Shown piece after piece: positions 8,042 to 11,008 of a DNA stretch of 11,008 bases. A model generated the notes under the pieces. The model was not told the DNA's origin. It did no database searches and saw nothing but the letters and a program-made list of their open reading frames with translations. The first letter of the stretch is position 1, and each line of letters begins with the position of its first letter. The translations under genes were made by a program, and so were the position numbers. The stretch comes from Candidatus Babeliales bacterium (GTDB lineage: Bacteria > Babelota > Babeliae > Babelales > JACPOV01). The stretch covers positions 1-11,008 of the forward strand of contig JAGVKP010000123.1 in the NCBI GenBank assembly GCA_020050475.1, given 5' to 3'.

Positions 8042-8066
8042 TTAAACCAATGAGGCGATGAATAGA

Positions 8067-8318
8067 ATGGCACAGTTTGATACGCATGATACGCAAGAAA
8101 AAGTTATAGCAATTATTGCTGAAGTTCTTCATATTCCCAAAGAGCAGATCAGTGGGGAAGCAACGCTTGATCAACTTGGTGCGGATTCGCTTGATAAACT
8201 TGAAATCGTGATGAAGCTTGAAGAAATGTTTGGCATTGAAATTGACGATGAGCAGGCCGCTCAAATTAATTCAATCAGCCAAGCGATTGAAAAAATTCAT
8301 CAAATGAGAAGCAAGTAG
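8067..8318 (+). CDS. acpP: Acyl carrier protein
   Basis: ACP carries growing acyl chains on a 4'-phosphopantetheine arm for fatty acid and phospholipid synthesis. The 83-residue acidic helical protein contains the attachment motif LGADSLDKLEIV with Ser41, followed by the typical helix KLEEMFGIEIDDE. GAGG at 8052-8055 is 11 bases before ATG 8067 but only 2 bases before an in-frame ATG at 8058, so 8067 is preferred; starting at 8058 would add Met-Asn-Arg. It lies 25 bases after gltX and in the same run as plsX, which uses acyl-ACP. A convergent gene ends 23 bases downstream. Confidence 0.94.
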   Translation: MAQFDTHDTQEKVIAIIAEVLHIPKEQISGEATLDQLGADSLDKLEIVMKLEEMFGIEIDDEQAAQINSISQAIEKIHQMRSK

Positions 8319-8341: not shown

Positions 8342-9100
8342 TCAAGCTTGTGTCGTGTTATTTTTGAATGAATGAGTCATTTGGCGAGCAAGCACTAATC
8401 TTTCTTCATCAGATGGATGGGTAGGCTCTGGAGCTTGGGCTGGTGATTTTTCCATCCAATAGCTTATATACTCGAGATATCCGTCAGCGTAATCTGGTCC
8501 ATGCTCAGCGCATAAAATATCAGCGCGTATTTCAGTAAATCGACGAAATTCATTAAGTGGGCAGGTAAATGAATCAGAGTGAGCGAGTCCCGTTTTTTGC
8601 ATGATAATTTCATCCATGAGCATATCCTGATAGATAAAGTGAATGAGCTCATGGCCAATGATATACTTCTTGCCCTTAATTGAATAGGTATTAAGTTTTT
8701 CTTCGTCGATGTAAATACTATTTCCGTGTGATGCGGCAGAACTTGGCATTTTGGCGCCATAAAAAGATACGGTAACCGGATTAATGCCAAACGCTGGCAA
8801 GATTTCTAGGCAGAGTTTTTGAGTTTCTTTGCTTATATTTTTGAATGTCGAATGAACTCTGGTATTCTTACTGCGGTTTTTGCTGAGCTGTTCATCACAT
8901 GCGGTCTTTGATGCGCCGGCAAGAGCTAGTTTTTTCCAGACGGTGCTTTCAAGTTCAGTTAAATAGCCAGAAGATGAGGTATTGATCTCGGTGCACCTAT
9001 TGATAACCGAAAGAAGCGTGCCTGCTGCACACAACCCCAGAACTACCAGCAAGGCACTAAGTAAAAGTTTGTTATTCATGAGCTTCGTTTCGTTATGCAT
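8342..9100 (-). CDS. Membrane-anchored M48-like zinc metallopeptidase, paralog A
   Basis: This 252-residue protein has an N-terminal hydrophobic anchor (~11-33), a charged helical linker (~45-105) and a metallopeptidase-like domain. The zinc site is HELIH at 150-154 with catalytic E151; the third ligand is probably E190 in RFTEIRADI, and THPSDEERL (227-235) matches the C-terminal M48-style HP motif. The topology suggests a domain outside the cytoplasm, tethered by one helix or released after cleavage. No lipobox is seen. It is the last gene of the paralog operon: ATG 9100 overlaps the stop of paralog B by 8 bases (ATGCATAA). An in-frame ATG at 9079 (residue 8) gives a cleaner signal-like N-terminus and is a real alternative start. 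The HExxH/ExxxD/HP combination supports M48 or a related gluzincin family; substrate unknown. Confidence 0.75.
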   Translation of the reverse strand: MHNETKLMNNKLLLSALLVVLGLCAAGTLLSVINRCTEINTSSSGYLTELESTVWKKLALAGASKTACDEQLSKNRSKNTRVHSTFKNISKETQKLCLEILPAFGINPVTVSFYGAKMPSSAASHGNSIYIDEEKLNTYSIKGKKYIIGHELIHFIYQDMLMDEIIMQKTGLAHSDSFTCPLNEFRRFTEIRADILCAEHGPDYADGYLEYISYWMEKSPAQAPEPTHPSDEERLVLARQMTHSFKNNTTQA

Positions 9101-9875
9101 GATTTATCCCAAATGATGCTAAAATCTGGTTTGAAAGTGCCAGGCGCTGTTCAAGTTTGGGATGCGTAGTACCCGTATTTTTTACTTTTGCGTCGAGCAA
9201 CTCTTGAATACATGCATGGTATCCGCGAGCGTAGTCGCTATTTTTTGATGCTGAATTAATGTCGGCACGCAGTTCATGAAAACGCGAAAGTTCATTGAGC
9301 GGACAATCTGCGGTCCTACCTTCCAGCCGCGTTGTTGTTTTGAGTATCTCACGTGCGATACTATCCTGCGTTATTAAATGTTGTAATTCATGTGCCAAGA
9401 GCCATTTTTGGCTGTGGCTAGCGAGCTTTCTCATCTCCGGTTCATTGATATAGATAGTACGTTTATGCGTCCATGCAGGGTGCGCTTGCGTGGTATTTAC
9501 CAGTACTACTGAGTTTGGGTTTACATCAAAATCGCGCAGTACGCCATGAACGAACTCTTTCATGGCTGTTGAAAGACTATCGACCTGTTTTTTTACCGTG
9601 TGTTCGCTCTTTTTCTCGCGCTCGATTTTTTGATCAATTAATTTTTTATCTGCGCCAGCTTGCGTAAGATGTTGCCATGCATTTTTTTCAAGTGCTTCCA
9701 AAAATTCTTTTAAATCAGTCTGACCAGTTGACGTGTCGCGTTGTTTTTGAACTAAAGACAAAGAGCTACTTTTTTTGTTTTTGTTATTGGTACAAAAATA
9801 AAGAGGTGCAGCTATGCCGATCGCAACAGCTGTGCCTAAAATAATAAGTTTTTTTGTTATCGTTATGTTTTCCAT
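9093..9875 (-). CDS. Membrane-anchored M48-like zinc metallopeptidase, paralog B
   Basis: A 260-residue paralog of the two neighbouring genes. It has an N-terminal hydrophobic anchor (~9-28), a Lys/Ser-rich linker (~30-110), a beta element RTIYINEPE (139-147), and the zinc site HELQH at 162-166 with catalytic E163. The third ligand is predicted as E201 in RFHELRADI, and THPKLEQRL lies at 237-245. The CPLNELSRF block just before the third ligand is shared with the sister genes. The ATG follows the stop of paralog C after one base, and an AGGAG at 9885-9889 (9 bases before the start) is embedded in the end of paralog C, so translation is probably coupled. Role and substrate are unknown. Confidence 0.78.
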   Translation of the reverse strand: MENITITKKLIILGTAVAIGIAAPLYFCTNNKNKKSSSLSLVQKQRDTSTGQTDLKEFLEALEKNAWQHLTQAGADKKLIDQKIEREKKSEHTVKKQVDSLSTAMKEFVHGVLRDFDVNPNSVVLVNTTQAHPAWTHKRTIYINEPEMRKLASHSQKWLLAHELQHLITQDSIAREILKTTTRLEGRTADCPLNELSRFHELRADINSASKNSDYARGYHACIQELLDAKVKNTGTTHPKLEQRLALSNQILASFGINHA

Positions 9876-9876
9876 C

Positions 9877-10650
9877 CTATGCTACTCCTACGGGTGATTG
9901 GTTAACTGACCCTGATATTTTCTGCGCCCATGCTAATCGCTCTGCGTGTTTCGGGTGGCAGGTGCCAAAGTCGGCGTTATTTTTCAACCAACCATGAGCA
10001 CGCTCCACATATCCTTGCGCAAATTCTGCTCCCAGTGATGCGGCCCTGATATCAGCTCTAAATTCAAAAAAGCGCGAGAGATAATTAATTGGGCAATCGG
10101 GAGATGTCGGGTTCAGCTTGAGATGATCGGTAAATTCTTCAACTACTTGTAACACCAGGGTATCACTGTTGATGATGTGCTGTGCCTCATGGCCAATGAC
10201 AAATTTCTTTGCTTGTTGGGTTAAGCCATTAAAAATATCTTGCGTAATATAGAGGCAACTATTGCCGGCGGCTGCTGCTGAATAACTTTTTTCTCGATGG
10301 TAAAGGGCTATGGTTTCAGGGTCTATGCCTGATTGAGTCAGTACGGTATCTACCAGCGTGCGCGTCGAAGTCGCAATTGATTTATCGATATGTCGCTTTG
10401 TAATTTTTTTTCGTAGCCCCTGCGCTTTTTGCACAACAGTTGCTTTATCAATATTTAGTTTTTTCAACTGTGCCCATGCTTCAGCCTCTTTTTCATCAAG
10501 AAAGGCCTGAGAATCGATAGTCTTTGTCGGTGCCTTGATAACGGGAGCTTTGCTAGATGTAAGAGTTATTACGCTTCCAATAATGAGCAGGCCGGCAATT
10601 GCCGAGACCGAGATAGCTAGATACTTAAGATAGCGGTGTATTGATTCCAT
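9877..10650 (-). CDS. Membrane-anchored M48-like zinc metallopeptidase, paralog C
   Basis: First gene of the three-gene protease operon, 257 residues. N-terminal anchor at ~9-30, helical charged linker (~45-105), a beta element CLYITQDIF (132-140), zinc site HEAQH at 154-158 with catalytic E155, third ligand predicted as E196 in RFFEFRADI, and CHPKHAERL at 231-239 in place of the sisters' THP. CPINYLSRF precedes the third ligand, as in the others. The start is set by a strong GGAGG 5 bases before ATG 10650. An upstream in-frame ATG at 10662 would place that ribosome binding site inside the gene and lies too near the predicted transcription start. The last residues SVNQSPVGVA are not shared with the paralogs. 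Cellular role unknown; an envelope-side protease is inferred. Confidence 0.78.
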   Translation of the reverse strand: MESIHRYLKYLAISVSAIAGLLIIGSVITLTSSKAPVIKAPTKTIDSQAFLDEKEAEAWAQLKKLNIDKATVVQKAQGLRKKITKRHIDKSIATSTRTLVDTVLTQSGIDPETIALYHREKSYSAAAAGNSCLYITQDIFNGLTQQAKKFVIGHEAQHIINSDTLVLQVVEEFTDHLKLNPTSPDCPINYLSRFFEFRADIRAASLGAEFAQGYVERAHGWLKNNADFGTCHPKHAERLAWAQKISGSVNQSPVGVA

Positions 10651-10655
10651 AAGAA

Positions 10656-10660
10656 CCTCC
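10656..10660 (-). promoter_or_regulatory. Strong ribosome binding site of paralog C
   Basis: GGAGG on the minus strand is 5 bases before ATG 10650 and immediately follows the alternative ATG at 10662. It decides the start codon in favour of 10650. Confidence 0.75.
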
Positions 10661-10673
10661 ATTTATATTTCTA

Positions 10674-10701
10674 ATTGTAAATATCATGGAGATTTAGTCA
10701 A
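10674..10701 (-). promoter_or_regulatory. Sigma70-type promoter of the protease operon
   Basis: On the minus strand TTGACT (10701-10696) and TACAAT (10679-10674) are separated by 16 bases; each matches 5 of 6 consensus positions. Transcription would start near 10667, leaving a leader of about 17 bases that contains the GGAGG site of paralog C. It lies in the 118-base gap between the partial paralog D and paralog C, implying C-B-A can be transcribed independently of D. Confidence 0.6.
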
Positions 10702-10768
10702 AATATGCGCAATTAATGGGCATACTTTGCTCGAAATGAGACATTATGGCTTGTAACGAGAGGAGATT

Positions 10769-11008
10769 TTAGCTTGTGAGGTTAAAAAAATGTCCAAGCG
10801 CGATGGACAGTTTTTTACGTTCTGCGGGTGCTGGATGGCTGGGTAGGGTACCGTAAATCGTCGTGTGCCATGGGTGATGGATATACAGATGGTACCCATA
10901 GAGGTAGTAGGGACTTTTTACCGCAGCAAGGATATCGGCGCGCAGTTCCATAAAATGAGATAACATATGGCACAGTGGTTCTTGGACCTCTTGTGCGATT
11001 GATCGTTC
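10769..11008 (-). CDS. M48-like metallopeptidase paralog D, C-terminal part (cut by window edge)
   Basis: The minus-strand frame is open to base 11008; 79 residues up to the TAA are visible. It contains HFMELRADILAA, aligning with the third-ligand block of the three neighbours, then a GYHLYIHH segment and SHPAPAERKKL, the counterpart of their HP...ERL motif. The HExxH zinc site would lie beyond the right edge and is not seen. The loop before the third ligand is about 12 residues shorter than in paralog B, and the CPLNE block is changed to EPLCHML. The internal ATG at 10966 falls within this conserved block and is not a plausible start. It is separated from paralog C by 118 bases and the promoter there, so it probably belongs to a preceding transcript. 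Confidence 0.6.
   Translation of the reverse strand, partial: ERSIAQEVQEPLCHMLSHFMELRADILAAVKSPYYLYGYHLYIHHPWHTTIYGTLPSHPAPAERKKLSIALGHFFNLTS

Follow-up and report, generated by a model that had tools for sequence, protein, structure and literature searches.

A tandem array of small M48-type metallopeptidases at one chromosomal site in Babeliales, with candidate exchange of catalytic domains between array positions

M48 proteases are familiar chiefly as housekeeping enzymes, each encoded by a single gene, and a bacterial locus at which several divergent members of the family stand in a row raises the question of what such a row does and how its members came to differ. A locus of this kind lies at one end of an 11,008-nucleotide stretch of DNA (hereinafter the window), namely contig JAGVKP010000123.1 of a Candidatus Babeliales bacterium (assembly GCA_020050475.1), which corresponds in full to contig C7 of genome G000 (738 kb in 128 contigs, 79% complete). 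NCBI taxonomy places the Babeliales under Candidatus Babelota, which we take to be the Dependentiae of the literature. The comparisons center on six genomes, G000 to G005, that represent families f1 and f2 among 100 listed genomes of the phylum; G001 and the window's genome belong to one genus. A preliminary description made from the letters alone (the sequence-only reading) had recognized three complete genes and one partial gene between positions 8342 and 11008 of the minus strand as diverged, membrane-anchored M48-like metallopeptidases, and the open reading frames (ORFs) bear out this gene content. Our analysis suggests that these genes encode small zinc metallopeptidases of family M48 and form a tandem array that is specific to the lineage and stands at one fixed place in a conserved block of envelope and lipid genes, and that the diversification of the array proceeded, at least partly, through domain exchange.

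The four genes share one plan. Gene a (8342..9100, minus strand), the nearest to the acyl carrier protein gene acpP (8058..8318, plus strand; Pfam PP-binding, 53.5 bits), with which the array is convergent, encodes an N-terminal hydrophobic stretch followed by the motifs HELIH, FTEIRAD and HPSDEER; the corresponding motifs behind the hydrophobic stretch are HELQH, FHELRAD and HPKLEQR in gene b (9093..9875, minus strand) and HEAQH, FFEFRAD and HPKHAER in gene c (9877..10650, minus strand). The ORF of c reaches to 10662, but the gene probably starts at 10650 because a public protein (P0001) has its start at that position and the ATG in frame at 10662 falls within an ATGGAGG stretch that resembles the ribosome-binding site of c. 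The 3' part of gene d (10769..11008, minus strand, open-ended) carries FMELRAD and HPAPAER, and its 5' part, with HELIH, is found on contig C26 of the same assembly (L065:8266-8886, with the start at L065:8266). The succession of HExxH, F-x-E-x-R-A-D-I and HPx4R is present in all four. Because b and a overlap by 8 bases and the gap between c and b is a single base, c, b and a look like one transcript with operon-like packing; d lies 118 bases upstream of c, and the spacer (10651..10768, minus strand) contains a promoter-like site (10701-10674), although such sites, which are consensus matches only, number 2 in this region compared to a mean of 6.1 in shuffled sequences. With N-terminal hydrophobicity taken as the best 19-residue mean hydropathy, each protein has one hydrophobic stretch, with values of 2.54, 2.19 and 2.31 for a, b and c and 1.25 for d, so that the proposed membrane anchor is plausible for a, b and c and less sure for d. 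Across the array copies, the value is at least 1.6 in 16 of 22 and lower in the remaining six (d, G001_1, G001_3, G002_1, G002_3 and G004_3).

Several lines of evidence bear on the assignment of these proteins to M48. The pattern HExxH-x(30,140)-HPx4R, which excerpts of PMC7950410 give as the M48 pattern with HPx4R as the active-site plug, arose 2, 4 and 1 times when a, b and c, respectively, were shuffled 20,000 times, which rules out chance motifs, and it is found in 30 of the 31 proteins compared, the sole miss being d, which is cut by the contig end. There are 13 invariant columns across 21 array proteins: H158, E159 and H162 are the same in all 21, and the equally invariant E200, A203 and D204 align to E201, A204 and D205 of BepA. 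Comparison with M48 hidden Markov models, suggested at the outset as a check, succeeded for c (PF01435, 35.1 bits against a cut-off of 20.3) and fell short for a (19.3 bits), b (18.6 bits) and the two pieces of d, which gave no match; at E <= 0.01, the Pfam M48 domain was detected in 17 of the 21 array proteins. A single-sequence comparison with BepA alone was not significant (probability 1.6%), though H236 was placed on H246, and a profile of four proteins aligned the zinc ligands to those of BepA (E 8.8e-5, probability 59.8%). The AF2 model of c (pLDDT 90.9) has the M48 fold, with 3c37, BepA and ZMPSTE24 as its best matches. Given the HExxH, ExxAD and HPx4R motifs, the invariant columns, the BepA ligand alignment and the confident model, the array proteins can be assigned to the M48 metallopeptidases, in agreement with the original assignment. 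The two histidines, the glutamate and the plug histidine would meet at one zinc, as judged by the alignment with BepA.

Other assignments were considered and rejected. The matches of a, b and c to eCIS_core, M78, M56 and other metallopeptidase-like Pfam families span just the HExxH stretch and its surroundings; the eCIS_core match of b (23.9 bits, cut-off 22) covers residues 129-171 only, and the similarity of b to an MG289-type lipoprotein (NCBIfam, 20.9 bits) is far below the cut-off of 225. A tblastn search with c against 50,697 phage records, which addressed a phage origin, gave no match.

Comparison with characterized M48 proteases shows both likeness and difference. BepA (YfgC), the periplasmic M48 protease of Escherichia coli, possesses a C-terminal TPR domain that is missing in the array proteins, which end within about 20 residues of HPx4R; HExxH and the glutamate are separated by 35-42 residues in the array proteins and by 61 in BepA (H140 to E201), and, unlike BepA, the array proteins have an N-terminal hydrophobic helix with no clear cleavage site and are encoded in tandem. 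HtpX is a multi-pass inner-membrane protein, and its families (NCBIfam PRK05457 and others) include the best NCBIfam match of c, in which the HExxH region aligns (24.4 bits against a cut-off of 245); the array copies show one N-terminal stretch in place of the several membrane helices of the HtpX subfamily. The E. coli proteins YcaL and LoiP resemble the array proteins in length (about 250 aa), in the single protease domain and in the motif set, but they are single genes, and identity between YcaL and the array copies amounts to 14-17%. LoiP is a lipoprotein. YcaL is an outer-membrane lipoprotein, as stated in excerpts of PMC7950410; inspection by eye of the N-terminal sequences revealed no lipobox cysteine after the hydrophobic stretch in a, b or c. 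Within the phylum, single M48-like proteins of G078, G081 and G100 and a tandem of three in G035 have the same FxExRAD/HPx4R plan with a signal-like N-terminus, but they occupy other loci, are single or independently expanded, and the four G035 copies form a clade of their own (96/91).

With c as the query, a match was found in 7 of 49 genomes, and the array profile matched 28 of 101 phylum genomes at E <= 1e-5 (the own genome included in both cases); many of the weaker profile matches are probably other M48 proteins. In a database of 5.8 billion protein sequences, the only match of c was c itself, and the profile yielded 5 matches among the 7,996 scored candidates sharing most words. Among the relatives' proteins, only copy 5 of G001 has a public name, 'M48 family metalloprotease [Candidatus Babeliales bacterium]'.

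In all six f1/f2 genomes, the array adjoins acpP, and in five of them the other flank consists of a gene for a cysteine-rich protein and a gene for an outer-membrane barrel (in the window's genome via C26; the exception is G004, where the contig is too short). In five fetched relatives that lack the array (G007, G009, G012, G016 and G031), the barrel and acpP genes are neighbors in every case, and no array-like ORF of at least 70 residues lies between them, the small unmatched ORFs at this place being two in G009 and one in G012. Because barrel and acpP are adjacent in all these array-less relatives, the block murF-ftsK-(uppP)-barrel-acpP-(fabD)-gltX predates the array. The names uppP, ftsK, murF, rsmH, fabD, gltX, yfgM, plsX, rpmF and gyrA presumably apply, as assigned by our own recognition of the sequences, and the identity of dprA is backed by Pfam. 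In G066, from a distant family, a 48-bit M48 match (L069:8126-8359) is located at the syntenic place among four barrel genes; the open frame that contains it spans 155 residues and has no start codon yielding at least 40 residues, and it is perhaps a remnant.

The comparison of copy number across relatives that had been proposed could be carried out, and the six genomes G000 to G005 encode 4, 5, 5, 2, at least 4 (G004, contig cut) and 3 array genes. For the window, 'at least four' can be narrowed. Contig C26 terminates in 99 bases identical to the start of the window's reverse strand, the gene order of the relatives agrees with this junction, and no additional array gene upstream of d was detected in the C26 ORF list or in the profile search of the genome. 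Given this overlap and the synteny, which are the basis for joining the two contigs, the window's genome most likely holds four array genes. Upstream of d, C26 encodes a 103-residue protein with 9 cysteines and a 516-residue protein, followed by uppP, ftsK, murF and rsmH on the opposite strand. In G001-G005, fabD separates gltX from acpP; in the window it is absent from the interval between these two genes (8042-8057).

How did the copies come to differ? Pairwise identity among the window's own copies is 23-31% (for d, over the N-terminal 207 residues), which rules out recent copies and, together with the tree, upholds the earlier notion of an old tandem relationship. Between the close species G001 and G002, the flanking proteins are 90.8-96.9% identical (barrel 96.9, fabD 90.8, gltX 95.5, yfgM 91.5 and plsX 96.0%) and the flanking DNA 88-90%, whereas array proteins at positions 1-5 are 67, 38, 40, 84 and 31% identical to their same-position counterparts (another comparison reaches 85). 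In a tree of 33 rows, position 1 groups with 1 and position 4 with 4 (both 100/100), but two groupings cross positions, namely G001_3 with G002_2 (100/99) and G001_5 with G002_3 (95/90); the window's c is the partner of G001_2 (96/81), and none is resolved for G002_5. In G005 (97/91) and G035 the copies group by genome, a pattern that would mean independent expansion or homogenisation.

At position 3, the cross-position grouping is accompanied by conserved edges. In the first 30 codons, 76 of 90 bases are identical between G001 and G002, including 27 of 30 third positions; the last 12 codons share 33 of 36 bases, and the spacer before the gene 19 of 21. Protein constraint is an unlikely cause of these edges because third positions are more conserved here than in the five flanking genes, where third-position identity is 0.68-0.80. 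The body of the G002 gene (alignment codons 38-244) tells a different story, with 143 of 218 informative sites shared with position 5 of G001, compared to 46 of 52 sites shared with position 3 outside the body, a pattern that none of 300 permutations reached. The same mosaic pattern is seen at position 2, again with 0 of 300 permutations; beyond the limits of the body, 26 of 36 sites match the gene's own position. The first codons of position 2, however, are not similar between the two species (35 of 90 bases ungapped, 0.43 gapped), so that the case there depends on the 3' edge and the permutation test. Altogether, three of eight exchange tests (two of position 3, one of position 2) gave 0/300; position 5 was weak (17/300), the reverse tests (69 and 48) were not significant, and the control positions gave 29 and 93. 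The mosaic has its borders behind the hydrophobic stretch and behind HPx4R, which points to the catalytic domain as the swapped unit, and since the exchanged bodies are merely 42-48% identical between the species, the donors were not recent copies. The mosaic of body and edges is shown at one position in one species pair, and a second position gives it partial support.

The sequence-only reading had invoked diversifying pressure, which is not what the pairwise ratios indicate. Of the same-position pairs, only two are close enough for this measure: dN/dS is 0.21-0.34 for G001_1/G002_1 and 0.09-0.11 for G001_4/G002_4, compared to 0.03-0.09 in five flanking genes. The dS of the exchanged pairs (1.5 to 2.9) is saturated. 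The testable array pairs are relaxed or faster than the flanks, not positively selected on average, and positive selection was not seen by pairwise dN/dS, an average that cannot exclude selected sites. At two positions of one species pair, the sites point to body exchange instead.

What, then, might the array do? We propose that each protein combines one N-terminal hydrophobic stretch with a compact M48 domain (a predicted fold), in which zinc would be held by both histidines of HExxH and the glutamate of ExxAD, with the histidine of HPx4R as fourth ligand and plug, as in BepA. If the N-terminus lies in the cytoplasm, the protease domain would be on the periplasmic side, where it could cut or clear secreted and outer-membrane proteins in transit, the plug opening on substrate in the manner of BepA, YcaL and LoiP. 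Several divergent copies would widen the substrate range, and the array would evolve as copies are gained or lost and as catalytic bodies are exchanged between positions, while anchors and C-terminal ends stay in place. A general role in proteolysis of the envelope or secretome, combined with diversification of the array, has in our view about an even chance of being right.

The variability of the array, far greater than that of its neighbors (31-85% compared to 91-97% identity), is the strongest point for a different reading, in which the proteases would be released through a cleaved signal, outer-membrane vesicles or export, and would act on proteins of protists or rivals, with body exchange driven by an arms race. 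Among the relatives of the lineage are intracellular parasites of protists, and the six copies of low N-terminal hydropathy, along with G005_2, whose N-terminus looks signal-peptide-like by eye, would fit release. Secreted M48 peptidases and outer-membrane vesicles are both reported for Chromulinavorax in excerpts of PMC6561590. Nevertheless, the 16 copies with values of at least 1.6 would fit retention in the membrane, dN/dS in the two testable pairs is 0.09-0.34, and the anatomy of ExxAD and the HPx4R plug fits envelope housekeeping proteases, so we hold this reading to be possible but the less probable one. The opposite extreme, neutral birth and death of redundant paralogs where the genome readily duplicates genes in tandem, with no particular role for the diversity, would account for copy numbers ranging from 2 to 5, for the M48-like tandems detected by motif elsewhere in the phylum (two genes in L072, four in L073) and for the 37 tandem gene duplications reported for Babela massiliensis in excerpts of PMC4378268. 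It appears quite improbable, above all because the catalytic motifs are kept in all complete array copies tested; in addition, dN/dS is well under 1 in the two testable pairs, and the array is kept in all six f1/f2 genomes.

The array could also be dedicated to the maturation or quality control of the adjacent cysteine-rich and barrel proteins, in the way of BepA with LptD. The small, secreted-looking cysteine-rich protein (9-14 Cys; L065:7810-8121 on C26, L028:5248-5520, L029:5702-5983, L030:5250-5561 and L032:8124-8510) is matched strongly in 5 of 101 genomes, each of which also carries the array (the G004 contig ends inside the array), with two more weak matches of 20 and 19 bits, and it could form a disulfide-linked surface layer. 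A layer of this type is known from Chlamydia; we found no literature on cysteine-rich outer-membrane proteins in Dependentiae. The model of the neighbor is a barrel (pLDDT 68.4, poor in loops) that matches the outer-membrane channels FapF (E 5.7e-10) and COG4313 (E 2.5e-7). Where no separate cysteine-rich gene is present, the barrels themselves can be cysteine-rich: all eight barrels of G066, G031 and G009 have 4-7 N-terminal cysteines (signal stretch included), compared to 0-2 in the six that lie beside the array or the cysteine-rich gene, and the G007 barrel is also enriched by eye. The barrels of G012 and G016, however, lack such a tail although the locus has no array; the barrel family occurs in each of the 33 genomes examined for it (the window's own among them), and the majority of these have no array; and turnover of the array contrasts with 97% conservation of the barrel, which is the strongest argument against a narrow barrel-folding role. 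We therefore regard this dedicated function as unlikely.

A further reading is that the array is a recombination-driven locus of protease diversification, with fixed anchor and tail positions into which whole catalytic domains are swapped from other positions or strains; this we put forward tentatively, as a conjecture with limited prospects. If it were true, a Babeliales population could retune which envelope or host proteins it cuts, in the way of swapped antigen cassettes but with enzymes. A conserved site with 2-5 divergent, intact copies that exchange catalytic bodies would be an unusual way to vary proteolysis, and at such a defined locus one could ask how these bacteria, which are poorly studied and probably depend on hosts, adjust their envelope or secretome to protists. 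The impression of the sequence-only reading that the array belongs to no known system is thus correct in part: the family has a public M48 name and excerpts of PMC6561590 speak of secreted M48 peptidases in a Dependentiae isolate, but we found no description of this array or of body exchange among M48 genes in the open-licence literature. M48 proteases, their secretion in the phylum and tandem duplication in Babela were known; the evidence for body exchange between array positions is new.

Some further observations concern the array proteins and their relatives. The final residue is alanine in 17 of 21 array proteins despite differing tail lengths (the exceptions end in F, I, V and T) and a mean alanine content of 8.8%; these ends are not independent observations, the proteins being related, and the C-terminal alanine is perhaps a processing or recognition end. 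Motif searches revealed other M48-like tandems in the phylum, of four genes in G092 (L073:541-4041) and of two genes each in G095 (L072:6019-7697), G001 (L066:3909-5905, HExxH in one of the two ORFs) and G002 (L067:5097-6969). The window's genome itself encodes a separate M48 protein on contig C55 (L027:1-840; Pfam, 53.9 bits) and two weaker ones on C70 and C33; given the clear Pfam match of the C55 protein, the array comes in addition to at least one other M48 protease.

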